DNA of 64,000 nt from Gammaproteobacteria bacterium (GTDB taxonomy: Bacteria; Pseudomonadota; Gammaproteobacteria; Steroidobacterales; JABDKV01). Positions within the stretch are counted from its first letter, which is position 1; every line of letters begins with the position of its first letter. The notes beneath the pieces were generated by a model, which saw only the letters and a program-made list of their open reading frames with translations, made no database searches and was not told the DNA's origin. This document shows, one piece after another, positions 6,888-39,719 of this stretch. The stretch is from contig JABDJB010000056.1 in NCBI GenBank assembly GCA_013003425.1, forward strand, positions 62,001 through 126,000. The letters are read 5' to 3'. The position numbers and the translations under genes were made by a program.

Positions 6888-8498
6888 CTAGTCGCCGGTT
6901 TCCCGGCCGAGCTTGCGCCATATCTCGCCAACCACGCGCAACGGGTCGGCGGCTGCAGCGGTGTCGATGTTTATGGCAAACACCCGCTCTTCGTCTGTCA
7001 GTGGCTGGGCATTGCGCTGCTGATACCCGAGCACCTCGACATCTGCCTCTGAAGCATCGCCGCCGTCCCACGCGCGCTGCGTGATGCGCTCACGCAGCGT
7101 GGTCGGGTCAGCAACGCATTCGAGGATGACGAGGCTGGCGGTCGACTGGCGGGCGAGATCGACAAACAGGCCACGCTGCTCCGACGTTAGCAAGGCGGCA
7201 TCGACGATTACGTCAAAGCTGGCCGCAAGCACGTCGGCCGCGCGATCGCGCAGGTACCGGTAGGTTTGCTGCGTCGCTTCGGCGGTGTAGATGCCGGCGC
7301 CAGGGGCACTGTTGCTGGTATCCAGCGCGTCGATACCGTGCAGCCGCTTGCGCTCGATGTCGGAGCGCAGGCGGATTGCGGGTATCACGCTGGCCAGTCG
7401 CGAGGTGAGCCAGGTCTTGCCCGACCCGGTCAGTCCGTTGGTAATGATCAGCGCCGGAAAGCGTGGCCGGATAGCTCGTTCCGCCAGCGCCAGGTGCATG
7501 CGGTAGTGCCGCGCTGCGTCCATGTAGACCTGGCTGCCTGGTTCGTTTTGCTCAGCGCGAATTGCAGCGATCTTTGCCCGCACCATCGACGCATAAACAA
7601 TGTAGAAACGCAGCAGGGCAGTACCGTTGTAATCGCCGGTCAGTTCCAGGTAACGGTTGAGAAAGCGCCACGCCATGTCGACGCGCTGCCGTGCCGCCAG
7701 GTCCATCACGAGGAAACCAACCTCTGACATGCAATCGCGCCAGCGCAGTGCCGGATCGAATTCTATGCAATCGAAGGCCACGATCTGGTTGTCGTACGCG
7801 GCCAGGTTCGACAGGTGCAGGTCGCCGTGATTCTCGCGTATCCGGCCGTCATGACGGCGCTGTTCGAAGCGCGGCCGCAGCAGTGCTACCTGGGTGGCGG
7901 TCCACTCGCCCAGCCGCAGCAGCGTGGAACGATCACCAGCATCATCGACCAGCGTATCCAGCGTGGTGAAATTGGCCATTGCTGGTTGCGCGATCGCTTC
8001 GACAGTGCCCCGGTCACTGGTGTCATCGGCCACTTTTGCCTGGTCGTGCATGGCGGCAACGGCAGCGGCAAGCTTGTCCATGTCGCCCAGTTCCAGGGAG
8101 CCGGCCAGCAGCTGCCGGTCGAGCTGGGAGTCCTGCTTGAACTCGCGCATCCGCACGGCATACTCGATTGCTTCAGGCGCGCTGCTGTCAGCGGCGACCT
8201 TCGGTGCCGATTCGCTGCCGGTGATGGCCACTACGGACTCGTAAAGCTGCGGGGATAAACGCTGGTTCAGGCGCAGTTCCTCTTCGCAAGCCTGGCGGCG
8301 CTGCCCGAGAGTGCTGAAGTCGAGAAAGCCGAGGGTGACCGGGCGCTTTATCTTGTAGGCATATTCACCGGTCAGCAGGACCCAGGAGACATGGGTTTCT
8401 ATTGCCCGTACCTCGCTGACCGGGTGTGGCCACGCCTCGGGGCTGCACAGCCCCCGGATGAGCGGGGGCAGATTCTGGTGCGCTGCGTCGCTATGCAT
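6888..8498 (-). CDS. bifunctional aminoglycoside-phosphotransferase-like / P-loop kinase protein
   Basis: A 536-residue two-domain protein. The N-terminal half (to about 330) looks like the APH/choline-kinase fold: YAYKIKRPV for the ATP-binding Lys, then the catalytic-loop block GDLHLSNLAAYDNQIVAFDCIEFDP. The C-terminal half has a P-loop near residue 354 (NGLTGSGKT) and resembles small-molecule kinases of the COG0645 type. This fusion (COG2187 plus COG0645) is common in proteobacteria. No substrate is established and it should not be read as an antibiotic-resistance gene. It is divergent from korC with only 37 bp between starts. Confidence 0.82.
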   Translation of the reverse strand: MHSDAAHQNLPPLIRGLCSPEAWPHPVSEVRAIETHVSWVLLTGEYAYKIKRPVTLGFLDFSTLGQRRQACEEELRLNQRLSPQLYESVVAITGSESAPKVAADSSAPEAIEYAVRMREFKQDSQLDRQLLAGSLELGDMDKLAAAVAAMHDQAKVADDTSDRGTVEAIAQPAMANFTTLDTLVDDAGDRSTLLRLGEWTATQVALLRPRFEQRRHDGRIRENHGDLHLSNLAAYDNQIVAFDCIEFDPALRWRDCMSEVGFLVMDLAARQRVDMAWRFLNRYLELTGDYNGTALLRFYIVYASMVRAKIAAIRAEQNEPGSQVYMDAARHYRMHLALAERAIRPRFPALIITNGLTGSGKTWLTSRLASVIPAIRLRSDIERKRLHGIDALDTSNSAPGAGIYTAEATQQTYRYLRDRAADVLAASFDVIVDAALLTSEQRGLFVDLARQSTASLVILECVADPTTLRERITQRAWDGGDASEADVEVLGYQQRNAQPLTDEERVFAINIDTAAAADPLRVVGEIWRKLGRETGD

Positions 8499-8535: not shown

Positions 8536-10377
8536 ATGGACCGACAAGACGGCTGGTGCCCGTGGGGCGGCAATAACGTGAAGCCTACCGATACCTCTGA
8601 TCCCGACTATTTCCACAAGGTGGTGGATTGTCAATGGGCCTGCCCGGCGCACACCAATGTACCGGAGTATATCCGGCTGATCGCGCAGGGTCGCTACACC
8701 GATGCGTACCTGCTCAATCGTGAGTCGAATGTCTTTCCCGGAATCCTCGGCCGGGTGTGCGACCGTCCCTGCGAACCGGCCTGTCGTCGTGCCCGGGTGG
8801 AAGACAAGCCGGTTGCCATTTGTCGCCTCAAGCGGGTCGCCGCGGATCTTAGTGACGAAGTTGCAGATCAGTTACCCCGGCGCCCGGCGCAGGGTAACGG
8901 CAAACGCGTTGCCCTGATCGGCGCCGGCTGTGCATCGCTGACCGTGGCCAATGACCTTTTGCCGCTGGGTTACGAGGTCGTTATATACGAGAAGCTGGGC
9001 GAAACCGGCGGGCTGATGCGCAGCAATATCCCGCGTTTTCGCCTGCCGCCGGAAATTCTCGACACCGAAATCAATGCCATAGTCGAAATGGGCGCAGAGC
9101 TGCGACTAAACGCACCTGTCGAGAGTCTCAAGGGTCTGCTGGACGAAGGATTCGACGCGGTATTCGTTGGCACCGGCGCGCCGCACGGCAAGAACCTCGA
9201 GTTGCCGGGTCGTTACGACACCGATCGCATCCATATCGGTATCGCCTGGCTCGAATCGGTGGCGTTCCAGCATATCGAGAGCATCGGTGAAAAGGTGCTG
9301 ATTATCGGCGGCGGAAATACAGCAATGGACTGCTGCCGCAGCTCGCTGCGGCTCGGTGGCAAAGACGTCAAGGTCATGGCGCGCAAGCCGCGTCACCTGC
9401 TGAAGGCCTCTGACTGGGAGCTGGAAGACGCCGAAGAGGAGCAGGTTGAGCTGCTGCTGAACCATTCGCCGGAAGAATTTATCGTTGAAGACGGCCGGTT
9501 GACCGGTATGAAATTTGCGCGCGTCGAGTGGCACGATGACGGCAGTGGCCGGTTAAAAGCAAAAACACTCGATCACGTTGTTATTCCGTGCGATGACGTG
9601 ATCCTGGCGATCGGCCAGGAAAATGCTTTTCCGTGGATCGAGCGCGATATGGGCATTGAATTCGATGAGTGGAATGTGCCGGTCGTCGACAAGAATACGT
9701 TTGAATCCACCAGGCCGGGCGTATTTTTTGGTGGTGATTCCGCCTTTGGCCCGAAGAATATCATCTGGGCCGTCGAGCATGGTCACCAGGCAGCGATTTC
9801 GATTCACAAGTACTGCCAGGGCGAATCGATGACCGAGCGGCTGCCGTATGGCATGAACCTGGCCAGCACAAAGATGAGCATTCATGAGTGGAGTTACAGC
9901 AACGACTTTGACCCGGCTGAGCGCCGGCTGATGCCCCATGTGAGCCTCAAGGAACGTTTCAAAAACCTCGATATTGAAGTTGAGCTGGGTTTTTCCTACG
10001 AACAGACGCTGACCGAAGTTGAGCGCTGCCTCAATTGCGATATCCAGACCGTGTTTGCTGCGAAACTGTGTATCGAATGCGATGCCTGCATCGACATCTG
10101 CCCGGTGGATTGCCTGACTATCACGCAGAACGGCGCCGAGCAGGAGTTGCGCACGCGGCTCAGCGCACCGGCAGAAAACACCAGCCAGGATCTTTACGTA
10201 TCGGAAGACCTGCCACACACCGGGCGCGTGATGGTGAAAGACGAAAACCTCTGCGTGCACTGTGGCTTGTGCGCCGAACGTTGTCCCACGGCTGCGTGGG
10301 ACATGCAGAAATCCGAGTTGATCATTCCGTACGCTACTGACGAGGCGCAATGTCCGAAGGAACAAAAAGCCGGGTAA
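8536..10377 (+). CDS. korC: KorC: GltD-like NADPH/FAD oxidoreductase with C-terminal ferredoxin domain
   Basis: A 613-residue flavoprotein. The N-terminal GltD-type Fe-S domain has Cys32, Cys36, Cys75, Cys79, Cys83 and Cys96. An FAD Rossmann motif follows (ALIGAGCASLTVA, about 123-135), then an NADPH motif (LIIGGGNTAMDC, about 255-266) and FFGGDSAFG. The C-terminus carries two [4Fe-4S] motifs (CIECDACIDICP from Cys512; CVHCGLCAERCP from Cys573). It overlaps korA by 28 bp. Together the three genes match the 2-oxoglutarate:NADP+ oxidoreductase described in Azoarcus evansii and Thauera aromatica, where KorC passes electrons between KorAB and NADP(H). The role is inferred from architecture and operon. 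Confidence 0.85.
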   Translation: MDRQDGWCPWGGNNVKPTDTSDPDYFHKVVDCQWACPAHTNVPEYIRLIAQGRYTDAYLLNRESNVFPGILGRVCDRPCEPACRRARVEDKPVAICRLKRVAADLSDEVADQLPRRPAQGNGKRVALIGAGCASLTVANDLLPLGYEVVIYEKLGETGGLMRSNIPRFRLPPEILDTEINAIVEMGAELRLNAPVESLKGLLDEGFDAVFVGTGAPHGKNLELPGRYDTDRIHIGIAWLESVAFQHIESIGEKVLIIGGGNTAMDCCRSSLRLGGKDVKVMARKPRHLLKASDWELEDAEEEQVELLLNHSPEEFIVEDGRLTGMKFARVEWHDDGSGRLKAKTLDHVVIPCDDVILAIGQENAFPWIERDMGIEFDEWNVPVVDKNTFESTRPGVFFGGDSAFGPKNIIWAVEHGHQAAISIHKYCQGESMTERLPYGMNLASTKMSIHEWSYSNDFDPAERRLMPHVSLKERFKNLDIEVELGFSYEQTLTEVERCLNCDIQTVFAAKLCIECDACIDICPVDCLTITQNGAEQELRTRLSAPAENTSQDLYVSEDLPHTGRVMVKDENLCVHCGLCAERCPTAAWDMQKSELIIPYATDEAQCPKEQKAG

Positions 10378-12164
10378 ACGACTTCGTCATCAAGCTGGCC
10401 AACGTTAATGGCACCGGCTCGGCCAGTGCCAACAGCCTGCTGATGAAGGCCATATTCCGCATGGGTATACCGGTGATGGGGAAAAACTATTTCCCGTCCA
10501 ATATCCAGGGATTGCCGACATGGTATGAAGTTCGTGTTACCAGTGACGGGCACACCGCGCGGTCCGGCAGTGTCGATTTTGCCGTTGCCATGAACGCCCA
10601 GACCTACCCGCAGGACCTTGCCGAAGTGTCGCCGGGCGGCTACCTGCTCTATGACTCCACCTGGCCACGTAGTCGCGTTTTGCAGCGCGACGACATCACT
10701 GTGCTGGGCGTGCCGCTGGCGCAGCTGTGCAACGAGACGTTTGACGGGGCACGGGCGCGCATACTGATGAAGAACGTTTGCTACGTTGGCGCGCTGGCCG
10801 CATTGCTCGACCTGGATCTCGACGTGATACGGCAATTGCTGGAGGAAACTTTTGCCAGCAAGAAAGCGTTGGTGGCCGGAAACCTGACGGCAATTCAGCT
10901 CGGTTACGACTACGCTCGTGAAAACTTCGACTGCCCGCTGCCGCTGCGCGTCGAGCCGCTGGACAGGACTGCCGGCCATATCATGATCGATGGTAATACC
11001 GCGGCGGCGCTCGGGTGTGTTTATGCCGGTGCAACCGTTGGCGCGTGGTATCCGATTACGCCGTCGACCTCGCTGATGGATGCATTCAAGGCATTCTGCT
11101 ATCGCTTCCGGCGTGACCCGGAAAGCGGCGAAAAGAATTACTGCATCGTGCAGGCCGAGGATGAACTGGCCGCCATAGGCATGGTGCTTGGTGCAGGATG
11201 GAACGGCGCACGCGCATTTACGCCAACAAGCGGGCCCGGCATTTCACTGATGAACGAGTTTATCGGCTTTGGCTATTTTGCCGAGATTCCTGCGGTGCTG
11301 TTCAATGTGCAGCGGGTTGGGCCGTCGACCGGGATGCCCACACGCACCCAGCAGTGCGACCTCACGACCTGCGCCTACGCTTCGCATGGTGACACCCGCC
11401 ACCCGTTGCTGTTGCCCGCCGATCCGCGGGAGTGCTTCGAATTTGCTGTAAACGCATTCGACCTGGCCGAGCGTCTGCAGACGCCGGTGTTTGTGCTCAG
11501 CGATTTGGATATCGGCATGAACGACTGGATGGTGCCGGAGCTGCAGTGGGACGACTCCTACGTGCCGGATCGTGGCAAGGTGCTGAGTTCGGCAGAACTC
11601 GAGCAGGCAGAGCAGTTTTACCGCTACACCGATGTGGATGGCGATGGCATCTGCTATCGCAGCCTGCCTGGTGTGCACCCGAAAGGAGCCTATTTTCTGC
11701 GTGGTTCCGGTCACAACGAGCGCGCGGAATACACCGAGGATGCGGAAGAATACAAAGCGGTTGTCGATCGCCTGTTGCGCAAGTGGGAAACGGCTAAAGA
11801 ACTGGTGCCGGAGCCGGTCGTATCCGGGGCAGGCAACCGCCTGGGAATTATCTCCGTTGGCTCGTGCGACGGAGCCGTACGTGAGGCAACCGAGTTGCTG
11901 GCACAGAAGGGCGTGCCGCTGGACTACCTGCGTGTGCGGGCATTCCCGTTCCATGAAAGCGTTCGTCAATTTATCGATGAGCACGAGCGGATCTATGTAA
12001 TCGAGCAGAACCGTGACGGGCAGCTGCGCACATTGATTATTAACGAGCTGGAACCTGACCTGGCCAAACTGGTGCCGCTGCTGCATTACAGCGGGCTGCC
12101 GATCGACTGTCGTTTTATAGTCAGGGAAATTGAGTCGGATATTGCCGCGGGGGTGGCAGCATGA
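10350..12164 (+). CDS. korA: 2-oxoacid:acceptor oxidoreductase, fused gamma-alpha subunit (KorA)
   Basis: A 604-residue fused subunit. Residues 1 to about 190 form the gamma domain (VIKLANVNGTGSASANSLL, IPVMGKNYFPSN). The remainder is the alpha subunit, with the diagnostic YPITPSTSLMDAF near residue 233, then QAEDELAAIGMVLGA, TPTSGPGISLMNEF and a C-terminal YVIEQNRDGQL block. This gamma-alpha fusion without a separate delta ferredoxin subunit defines two-subunit KorAB enzymes, which decarboxylate 2-oxoglutarate to succinyl-CoA with thiamine diphosphate. GAGG precedes the ATG inside the end of korC. The korB start overlaps the stop codon (ATGA). Confidence 0.88.
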   Translation: MSEGTKSRVNDFVIKLANVNGTGSASANSLLMKAIFRMGIPVMGKNYFPSNIQGLPTWYEVRVTSDGHTARSGSVDFAVAMNAQTYPQDLAEVSPGGYLLYDSTWPRSRVLQRDDITVLGVPLAQLCNETFDGARARILMKNVCYVGALAALLDLDLDVIRQLLEETFASKKALVAGNLTAIQLGYDYARENFDCPLPLRVEPLDRTAGHIMIDGNTAAALGCVYAGATVGAWYPITPSTSLMDAFKAFCYRFRRDPESGEKNYCIVQAEDELAAIGMVLGAGWNGARAFTPTSGPGISLMNEFIGFGYFAEIPAVLFNVQRVGPSTGMPTRTQQCDLTTCAYASHGDTRHPLLLPADPRECFEFAVNAFDLAERLQTPVFVLSDLDIGMNDWMVPELQWDDSYVPDRGKVLSSAELEQAEQFYRYTDVDGDGICYRSLPGVHPKGAYFLRGSGHNERAEYTEDAEEYKAVVDRLLRKWETAKELVPEPVVSGAGNRLGIISVGSCDGAVREATELLAQKGVPLDYLRVRAFPFHESVRQFIDEHERIYVIEQNRDGQLRTLIINELEPDLAKLVPLLHYSGLPIDCRFIVREIESDIAAGVAA

Positions 12165-13216
12165 GCTTTATTCGCAAGCCCGATATCCGCTACAAGGGCC
12201 AGCGTACCAACGCGCTCGGCCTGACGCTGCGTGACTATGAGGGTGGCATGTCCACGCTGTGCGCAGGCTGCGGTCATGACTCCATAACTTCGGCGCTGGT
12301 GCAGGCTTTTTTCGAGCTCGATATTGAGCCATACCGTGTTGCCAAGCTGTCCGGTATTGGCTGCTCGTCAAAAACGCCGGCATATTTTCTCAGCCAGGCG
12401 CACGGGATTAACGCGGTCCACGGCCGTATGCCGGCTGTTGCCACAGGCGCCAACGCCGCTGCGCGTGACCTCTACTACATCGGTGTGTCTGGTGATGGCG
12501 ATTCGCTGTCGATCGGGTTGGGGCAGTTTGCCCATGCCATGCGGCGCAACCTGCACATGCTGTACCTGATCGAAAACAACGGCGTCTATGGCCTGACAAA
12601 GGGCCAGTTTTCCGCCAGTGCCGATATCGGCAGCAAGGCGAAGAAAGGCGAAATAAACGAGCAGCGCCCGATTGACCCGGTCAAGACGGCCCTGGCCATG
12701 GGCGGTACATTTGTCGCGCGTGGATTCTCCGGCGACAAGGATCAGCTGCTGCCGATGCTCAAGGCGGGCCTCAAGCACGACGGCTTTGCCATGATCGATG
12801 TGCTGTCGCCCTGCGTGACCTTCAACGATCACGAGGACTCGACCAAGAGCTACGCTCATACCCGGCAGTTCTATCATCCGGCTGTGCATGCCGATTTTAT
12901 CCCGCCTGCGGAACCGATCCGCGCGGGCTACGACGAGGGAGAAGCGGTGCCGGTGCAGCTGCACGACGGCAGCCAGGTGCTGCTGCGGAAAGTCGCGCCG
13001 GATTACGACCCGCACGATCGCGCGGCTGCAATGTCTTATCTCGAGCGCCACGAACAGGCCGGCGAAATTGTTACCGGCCTGCTGTATATCGAAGAGCATC
13101 GGCCGACCATGCATGCTATCAATCAGACCGCCGCGACGGCATTACGCGATCTCGATTACTCCGTGCTGAATCCGGGCGCGGCAGCATTGGCTGAGTTGCA
13201 GAAGCGATTTCGCTAA
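12161..13216 (+). CDS. korB: 2-oxoacid:acceptor oxidoreductase, beta subunit (KorB)
   Basis: A 351-residue thiamine-diphosphate-binding beta subunit. CAGCGHDS and GCSSKTPAYF supply cluster-binding Cys residues. The TPP motif is GDGDSLSIG followed by ENNGVYGLTKGQFS. The HGR block after the second Cys motif is also conserved in the family. It starts by a 4-bp overlap with korA, so the three genes are almost certainly one transcript. The neighbouring citrate synthase gene is 25 kb away, so KorAB probably serves the oxidative (or reversible) 2-oxoglutarate step, but other 2-oxoacids cannot be excluded from sequence alone. Confidence 0.88.
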   Translation: MSFIRKPDIRYKGQRTNALGLTLRDYEGGMSTLCAGCGHDSITSALVQAFFELDIEPYRVAKLSGIGCSSKTPAYFLSQAHGINAVHGRMPAVATGANAAARDLYYIGVSGDGDSLSIGLGQFAHAMRRNLHMLYLIENNGVYGLTKGQFSASADIGSKAKKGEINEQRPIDPVKTALAMGGTFVARGFSGDKDQLLPMLKAGLKHDGFAMIDVLSPCVTFNDHEDSTKSYAHTRQFYHPAVHADFIPPAEPIRAGYDEGEAVPVQLHDGSQVLLRKVAPDYDPHDRAAAMSYLERHEQAGEIVTGLLYIEEHRPTMHAINQTAATALRDLDYSVLNPGAAALAELQKRFR

Positions 13217-13260: not shown

Positions 13261-13346
13261 ATCGTGCGGGTTTGTTCGCGGCTGAAGCCGCTCCTGCACG
13301 TATGAATTACATCGTGCGGGATTTGTTCGCGGCTGAAGCCGCTCCT
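13261..13346 (-). repeat. two tandem REP-like repeats (about 50-bp unit)
   Basis: Two copies, 50 bp apart, of a unit that on the minus strand reads GGAGCGGCTTCAGCCGCGAA followed by CAAA(T)CCCGCACGATG. The core GCGGCTTCAGCCGC is a near-perfect palindrome. The same GTAGGAGCGGCTTC core occurs again at 58.9 kb. The upstream copy begins at the TAG stop codon of the aminopeptidase gene. Similar elements are widespread REP repeats in Pseudomonas and Xanthomonas relatives. Confidence 0.85.
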
Positions 13347-38429: not shown

Positions 38430-39719
38430 ATGGCAAACAAGACAATTACCCTGACAGACAACACCACCGGCAAATCAGTGGAATTGCCGCTGCTCGATGG
38501 CACCTGCGGGTCTCCCGTGCTCGACGTGCGGTCGATCCAGAAGGAGCTCGGCTGTTTTACCTTCGATCCGGGGTTCAAGGCCACCGCCAGCTGCCGCAGC
38601 GAAATCACTTATCTTGATGGCGCCAAGGGCGAACTGCTTTATCGCGGCTACCCGATCGAGCAGCTGGCCGAGCAATGCAGTTTTCTCGAAGTGTGTTACC
38701 TGCTGCTGCATGGTGATTTGCCGGGTCGCGACGAACGCGACACGTTTGTCGACAAGATCCGTTCGCATACCATGATTAATGAAGGGCTGCGCAGTTTCCT
38801 CAGCGGCTTCCGCTATGATGCCCATCCGATGGCGATTCTCACCAGCGTCGTGGGTTCGCTGTCAGCGTTTTATCATGACTCGCTCAATATTCACGATCCG
38901 GAGCAGCGGCTGACTACGGCGCATCGCCTGATTGCAAAAATGCCGACCATAGCGGCGGCAGCCTACAAGCACTCCAAGTCCGAGCCTGTGCTCTATCCAC
39001 GCAACGAACTGAGCTACACCGGAAATTTCCTGTGGATGATGTGGGGCAAGCCGACCGAGCAGTACGAACCCGATCCGGTAGCGGAAAGAGCGCTGGATGT
39101 GCTGTTCCTGCTGCATGCCGACCACGAGCAGAATGCGTCGACCTCGACGGTGCGCCTCGCCGGGTCATCGCAGACAAATCCGTTTGGTGCGATCGCCGCC
39201 GGAACCGCCAGCCTGTGGGGGCCGGCGCATGGCGGTGCGAACGAGGCGGTGCTGCGGATGCTCGACGAAATTGGCAGCGTCGCGAACATCGAGAAGTTCA
39301 TCGCCCGGGCCAAGGACAAGGACGACCCGTTTCGCCTGATGGGCTTTGGTCACCGCGTCTACAAGAATTTTGATCCGCGTGCCCGCATCATCAAGAAGAT
39401 GGCCGACCAGGTGCTGGAGAAGTACGGTGACGATCCACGTATGGAACTGGCCATGCGGCTCGAGGAGATCGCGCTCAAGGACGATTACTTCGTCGAACGC
39501 AAGCTCTATCCCAACGTCGATTTCTATTCCGGCATCATCTACCAGGCACTTGGCTTCCCTTACGAGATGTTTACCGTCATGTTCGCCATCGGCCGGACGG
39601 TAGGCTGGATCTCGCACTGGATGGAAATGGTGTCGGATCCGCGCATGGTCATTGGCCGGCCGCGTCAGCTGTACTGTGGCGCCGCCCAGCGGGATGTACC
39701 ACCGCTCGATTCGCGCTAG
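38430..39719 (+). CDS. gltA: citrate synthase (type II, GltA)
   Basis: A 429-residue citrate synthase that condenses acetyl-CoA and oxaloacetate in the TCA cycle. Features are the N-terminal extension typical of NADH-regulated Gram-negative enzymes, [17 protein letters not shown] (catalytic His), [16 protein letters not shown] (second catalytic His and Arg) and the C-terminal [10 protein letters not shown]. Length fits the 420-430 residue Gram-negative type. GAAGG precedes the ATG. The stop codon shares four bases with the convergent hydantoinase gene. It complements KorCAB in central metabolism. Confidence 0.95.

Follow-up and report, generated by a model that had tools for sequence, protein, structure and literature searches.

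Discussion of KorCAB has mostly centred on its role in supplying electrons to anaerobic ring reduction, and the KorABC enzyme of Azoarcus evansii is reportedly a 2-oxoglutarate:NADP+ oxidoreductase. Here the analysis concerns a korCAB gene set at positions 8536-13216 of a 64,000-nucleotide stretch (the window) of contig JABDJB010000056.1, from the genome of a Gammaproteobacteria bacterium (assembly GCA_013003425.1; GTDB order Steroidobacterales). A preliminary description of this DNA had taken the enzymes of A. evansii and Thauera aromatica alike to be NADP+-linked. For A. evansii this is reportedly right, and the same gene set was found in Aromatoleum aromaticum EbN1. KorAB of T. aromatica, however, is described as a 2-oxoglutarate:ferredoxin oxidoreductase in a report that also records korAB from two strains of R. 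palustris (PMC9973337). A precedent for use in the tricarboxylic acid (TCA) cycle is the aerobic, oxidative enzyme Rv2454c-Rv2455c of M. tuberculosis, as described by Baughn et al. 2009 (PMC2773412). Term look-ups in Woeseiales/Woeseiaceae papers gave no mention of oxoglutarate or ketoglutarate, and among the listings obtained from the openly licensed literature for korCAB, korABC and related terms there was nothing on this point.

The kind of enzyme is already known, and its distribution across the order is the interesting part. KorCAB of the window is probably a soluble NADP-linked 2-oxoglutarate oxidoreductase working in the oxidative direction, alongside the complete 2-oxoglutarate dehydrogenase of this genome; it is a core enzyme of the order and maybe the only route of some relatives for this step. 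If KorCAB is indeed a TCA enzyme, the step would become a source of NADPH that is free of lipoate and of the E2/E3 machinery, and cycle closure in relatives lacking SucA would be explained. TCA annotation judged by SucA alone would mislead. The features are as follows.

8536-10377, plus strand: korC, 613 amino acids (aa) from ATG 8536; flavin adenine dinucleotide (FAD)/NADP(H) subunit with Fer4_20, Pyr_redox_2 and Fer4_7
10350-12164, plus strand: korA, 604 aa; gamma-alpha fusion with POR and POR_N; YPITP at residues 234-238, R322, T327
12161-13216, plus strand: korB, 351 aa; thiamine pyrophosphate (TPP) subunit with TPP_enzyme_C and PFO_beta_C; Cys 34, 37, 68 and 218; K71, L145
8499-8577, no strand assigned: putative promoter region of korC and the opposite gene, a short divergent intergenic stretch (open reading frame map and sequence)

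A conserved three-gene operon

korCAB is a real, conserved operon. The open reading frame map and the sequence bore out the three genes and positions of the preliminary description, with korC and korA sharing 28 bp (10350-10377) and korA and korB 4 bp (12161-12164), and its naming of a flavoprotein, a gamma-alpha fusion and a TPP subunit in a KorCAB-type 2-oxoacid oxidoreductase was backed by domain searches. For the relatives, the best 80 of 201 from a scan of genome contigs were kept (L017-L096), nearly all from metagenome-assembled genomes; their record names include 22 Woeseiaceae and 37 unplaced Gammaproteobacteria, and the named relatives are largely marine. All three kor genes were present in 96 of 143 loci, and since order and strand were kept in every one of these (96/96), the arrangement is not due to chance; in the other 47 loci at most 1.2 kb of locus or contig extended beyond the last gene found. 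Because KorC residues 1-14 are unconserved (with a gap at residue 8 in 138 of 143 alignment rows) and the KorC proteins of relatives begin at the position of GTG 8578, translation likely starts at this codon (giving 599 aa), with ATG 8536, a mechanical call, probably lying 14 codons too early.

In profile searches KorA matched POR (21-187) followed by POR_N (222-389), i.e. the gamma-alpha order, and scored 561.2 bits with TIGR03710, the model of the 2-oxoacid:acceptor alpha subfamily, above the cut-off of 482.75. The closest solved structures by E-value were 6n2n for KorA and 5b48 for KorB. Conservation was read from alignments of 101 rows for KorA, 92 for KorB (both counts including the reference and restricted to 90% query coverage) and 143 for KorC. 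Cys 34 and Cys 37 of KorB were conserved in 91/92 rows (one gap) and Cys 68 and Cys 218 in 92/92.

KorC matched Fer4_20 (31-107), Pyr_redox_2 (124-416) and Fer4_7 (512-587), and fell below every cut-off in the 25 NCBIfam rows listed out of 53 families matched. An assignment as GltD, the small subunit of glutamate synthase, was rejected, the scores lying far below the cut-offs of the GltD models TIGR01316, TIGR01317 and TIGR01318 and the downstream genes being korA and korB, not GltB. The Fer4_20 match begins at profile position 31 of 113, so that the first 30 positions are absent. This missing part presumably holds the first CxxC, with ligands assigned after dihydropyrimidine dehydrogenase, and the N-terminal domain of KorC probably carries fewer clusters than that of GltD. 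Sixteen cysteines outside the FAD/NADP module (32, 36, 75, 79, 83, 96, 498, 501, 512, 515, 518, 522, 573, 576, 579 and 583) were each kept in no fewer than 142 of 143 rows. R283, part of the second nucleotide motif, is invariant (143/143); this Rossmann motif reads ARKPR, with basic residues, in the clade of the window, whereas the Aromatoleum/Variovorax-type group has VRSxF, and three rows from one family of the order (f14) have YRGxR. An AlphaFold model of KorC made with 15 close sequences had a mean predicted local distance difference test score of 50.4, too poor to use.

The gene divergent to korC (minus strand, 6888-8498) encodes an AAA_33 P-loop kinase domain at its C-terminal end, and 79 bases separate it from the likely start of korC. 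Just 3' of korB, a 20-base palindromic element resembling repetitive extragenic palindromes is present in two exact copies (13275-13294 and 13326-13345), with 0 expected from shuffles.

KorCAB and SucA in the source genome and its relatives

The source genome (3.26 Mb, 115 contigs, 95.5% complete) carries a complete sucA-sucB-lpd operon on a separate contig (C38), and KorCAB is therefore an addition to 2-oxoglutarate dehydrogenase in this organism. The preliminary description had offered replacement or addition; addition is what was found here, and replacement, rejected for this genome with its intact sucA-sucB-lpd, is plausible only in relatives. Pyruvate dehydrogenase genes lie on C67 (names read from the sequence together with an E1 family match), a citrate synthase gene lies inside the window (38430-39719), and the genome also has SucC and four COX1 matches. 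The window had been described as free of benzoyl-CoA pathway genes, which agrees with a search of the whole source genome for PF06050 (class I benzoyl-CoA reductase) that gave 0 matches; a benzoyl-CoA context for KorCAB was rejected on this ground. Elsewhere in the genome are a second KorA-KorB-gamma set on C103 (L012, 4832-8741), which is split, is accompanied by an HdrA-like FAD/Fe-S protein and has a KorA that passes PRK08659; a pyruvate:ferredoxin oxidoreductase (PFOR)-like protein of 1647 aa adjoining an RnfB-like gene on C60 (L011, 211-6032), which is below the cut-off of TIGR02176 and longer than the 1167 positions of that model; and a fused indolepyruvate oxidoreductase on C56.

Across 147 genomes of the order, KorC was present in 127 (E below 1e-170, counting fragments in G036 and G092) and SucA in 121 (E <= 1e-3, including five genomes under cut-off; six SucA-negative genomes, G115, G118, G123, G127, G139 and G146, were deduced from absence in the SucA list). 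Both proteins were found in 104 genomes, KorC only in 23, SucA only in 17 and neither in three. With completeness of 90% or more and contamination of 5% or less required, 113 genomes remained; eleven of these lack SucA, and ten of the eleven have KorC; in all ten (10/10) it is accompanied by an adjacent KorA, a SucC scoring above its cut-off, citrate synthase and COX1. The exception, G094 (95% complete), lacks KorC as well as SucA, and its SucC is just a fragment. SucA is absent from 11/11 genomes of family f14 (1.1-1.6 Mb, 64-92% complete), from 3/3 of f16/g17 and 2/2 of f16/g49, from the single-contig genome G087 and from several f6 genomes, and at least three changes of SucA state are required on the korCAB gene tree, which is not a species tree. 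Heme-copper oxidases were found in 24 of 27 genomes tested, and no benzoyl-CoA-reductase-type protein in 34 tested members of the order, source genome included. No conserved neighbour betraying a pathway was seen; besides korCAB itself, the gene shared most widely was one named from its sequence as dihydroorotase-like, present at 7 of 33 loci, none of them outside the order.

For a streamlined f14 relative, G013 (92% complete), 1,425,299 bases were searched with query proteins from E. coli K-12 and from the source genome. AceE, AceF, Lpd, citrate synthase, Icd, SdhA, SdhB, SucC, SucD and KorCAB are present, along with PntA, PntB, a GabD-like protein, a partial isocitrate lyase and Mdh as a weak partial match only; the same queries found no SucA, separate SucB, PFOR, indolepyruvate oxidoreductase or malate synthase A. 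KorCAB is the sole match in G013 to the 2-oxoacid:acceptor oxidoreductase queries and the only CoA-dependent 2-oxoglutarate route detected there, the semialdehyde bypass having been partly tested. PntAB may serve this organism as an outlet for surplus NADPH. Replacement of 2-oxoglutarate dehydrogenase by KorCAB is plausible in relatives that lack SucA. A wider history, in which KorCAB would be the ancestral NADPH-making aerobic TCA enzyme of the order and 2-oxoglutarate dehydrogenase was lost several times, including in the streamlined 1.1-1.6 Mb family where KorCAB would then be the sole route, is put forward tentatively, and we lean somewhat against it.

Beyond the order, KorC (E <= 1e-90) was found in 25 of a phylum sample of 398 genomes, counting the source genome and one 36% outlier. 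SucA accompanies it in 23 of the other 24, the exception being the outlier, and KorCAB outside the order is therefore an addition. Of the 58 genomes searched for PF06050, one had it (G337, whose KorC lies on another contig), and thus KorCAB stands mostly apart from benzoyl-CoA reductase.

Substrate, electron acceptor and direction

The net reaction would be 2-oxoglutarate + CoA + NADP+ -> succinyl-CoA + CO2 + NADPH. TPP at the KorA/KorB interface would decarboxylate the 2-oxoacid, and electrons would pass to the [4Fe-4S] cluster of KorB, to the two clusters of the KorC ferredoxin domain and then, by way of the N-terminal Fe-S domain of KorC, to FAD and NADP+. The substrate, NADP+ as acceptor, the direction and the formation of a KorCAB complex are all what we infer from gene content and comparison.

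Residues of the substrate site were compared with the Sulfolobus enzyme by pairwise alignment. KorA T237 (in YPITP), R322 and T327, each conserved in 101/101 rows, correspond to Thr256a, Arg344a and Thr349a, and KorB K71 (K in 91/92 rows, the exception being a 36%-identity outlier, L175) and L145 (92/92) to Lys49b and Leu123b. According to the published account of the Sulfolobus enzyme, Arg344a and Thr256a bind the carboxylate of the 2-oxoacid, and the K49I mutant (Lys49b) loses activity on 2-oxoglutarate, Ile being the residue at this position in pyruvate-specific PFOR (PMC5020499). The mapping is mostly compatible with 2-oxoglutarate, at K71, L145, R322 and T237, with S453 of KorA as the one position that is not.

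Several observations, of which S453 is one, weigh against the proposed role. Asp468a, likewise required for 2-oxoglutarate in the Sulfolobus enzyme (PMC5020499), is replaced at this position by Ser, as in 82 of 101 rows, with Thr in 17. KorB scored 210.9 bits with TIGR02177, for the PorB/KorB subfamily, below the cut-off of 261.9, its four cluster cysteines (34, 37, 68 and 218) being conserved. The difference between ARKPR and VRSxF means that cofactor preference is not simply transferable from Aromatoleum-type enzymes, as judged from the motif, and the second KorA/KorB-like set of the source genome, on C103, could do the same job. Presence of KorC and absence of SucA are not associated (Fisher P = 1.0 in all 147 genomes and also in the 113), because KorC is near-universal in the order. 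Lastly, AcnA/AcnB and FumA/FumC were not found in G013 with E. coli queries, and a complete TCA cycle is not established there; two aconitase-like matches score as LeuC (the C4 one below the TIGR00170 cut-off), and a loose motif scan gave no fumarase-like and no ArgH-like signature. Since the ArgH-like motif is missing too, gaps in the G013 assembly are likely.

Among other explanations, the one that fares best is a KorCAB-like enzyme whose main substrate is pyruvate, 2-oxobutyrate, a branched 2-oxoacid or the like, as with the broad Sulfolobus enzymes, which accept pyruvate as well as 2-oxoglutarate (PMC5020499). The TIGR03710 model defines a subfamily with no substrate specified and the Ser/Thr at the Asp468a position also fits this explanation, but K71 and L145 of KorB differ from the Ile and Asn of PFOR, pyruvate dehydrogenases are already present in both the source genome and G013, and relatives lacking SucA need a 2-oxoglutarate step if their citrate synthase and SucC run as a cycle; on balance, a different main substrate is unlikely.

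Less probable still is that electrons go mainly to ferredoxin, or that KorC acts as an NADPH:ferredoxin reductase, providing a low-potential supply as in anaerobic aromatic degraders. The ferredoxin dependence of T. aromatica KorAB (PMC9973337) would suit such a role, as would the PFOR-like protein adjoining an RnfB-like gene in the source genome. Against it stand the dedicated FAD/NADP(H) and ferredoxin-domain subunit KorC, beside KorAB in 96/96 complete loci, and the absence of a benzoyl-CoA-reductase-type protein from all but one of the 58 genomes tested.

Operation in the direction of carbon fixation, with NADPH driving the carboxylation of succinyl-CoA, had been allowed for in the preliminary description and is very improbable: enzymes of the superfamily are reversible, but with potentials of about -0.49 V for 2-oxoglutarate/succinyl-CoA and about -0.32 V for NADP+/NADPH the reduction is uphill by more than 30 kJ/mol for two electrons, and PF00285 frames in 27 genomes measured 372-464 aa, with none (0/27) having the length of an ATP-citrate lyase. 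NADPH-driven reductive use is energetically unlikely, and is rejected as the main role because NADPH is too weak a donor.

Comparison with known systems

The closest described systems are of the Azoarcus type, for which EbN1 was checked. Plasmid 2 of this strain carries korCAB in the same gene order (NC_006824, 4890-9594), and its KorC, KorA and KorB are 58, 59 and 57% identical to those of the window; at this locus (L157, NC_006824, 4389-9594) the EbN1 genes are preceded by a CBS-domain gene, and the plasmid is typed as conjugative. The two systems differ in that they belong to separate clades, that the motif is VRSGF in EbN1 and ARKPR here, and that the source genome has no benzoyl-CoA reductase. 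In a tree of 52 chosen korCAB rows, built by a quick method and without L058, which was dropped for its cut KorB, the Aromatoleum-type group (17 rows) was split off by a branch with a Shimodaira-Hasegawa-like approximate likelihood ratio test (SH-aLRT) value of 99, and the window fell within its own family (100).

The KorAB ferredoxin enzymes (6n2n and those of Hydrogenobacter, T. aromatica and M. tuberculosis) have in common with KorCAB a gamma-alpha KorA and a TPP-binding KorB with one [4Fe-4S] cluster; these enzymes are not known to have a dedicated KorC FAD/NADP subunit. The GltD / NfnB / PRK12771 family shares with KorC the N-terminal Fer4_20 and the FAD/NAD(P) module, whereas KorC lacks the start of Fer4_20 and adds a C-terminal dicluster ferredoxin. 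SucA-SucB-Lpd, lipoate-dependent, NAD+-linked and encoded elsewhere in the source genome, is unrelated to KorCAB, yet its net reaction, from 2-oxoglutarate to succinyl-CoA, is the one proposed here.

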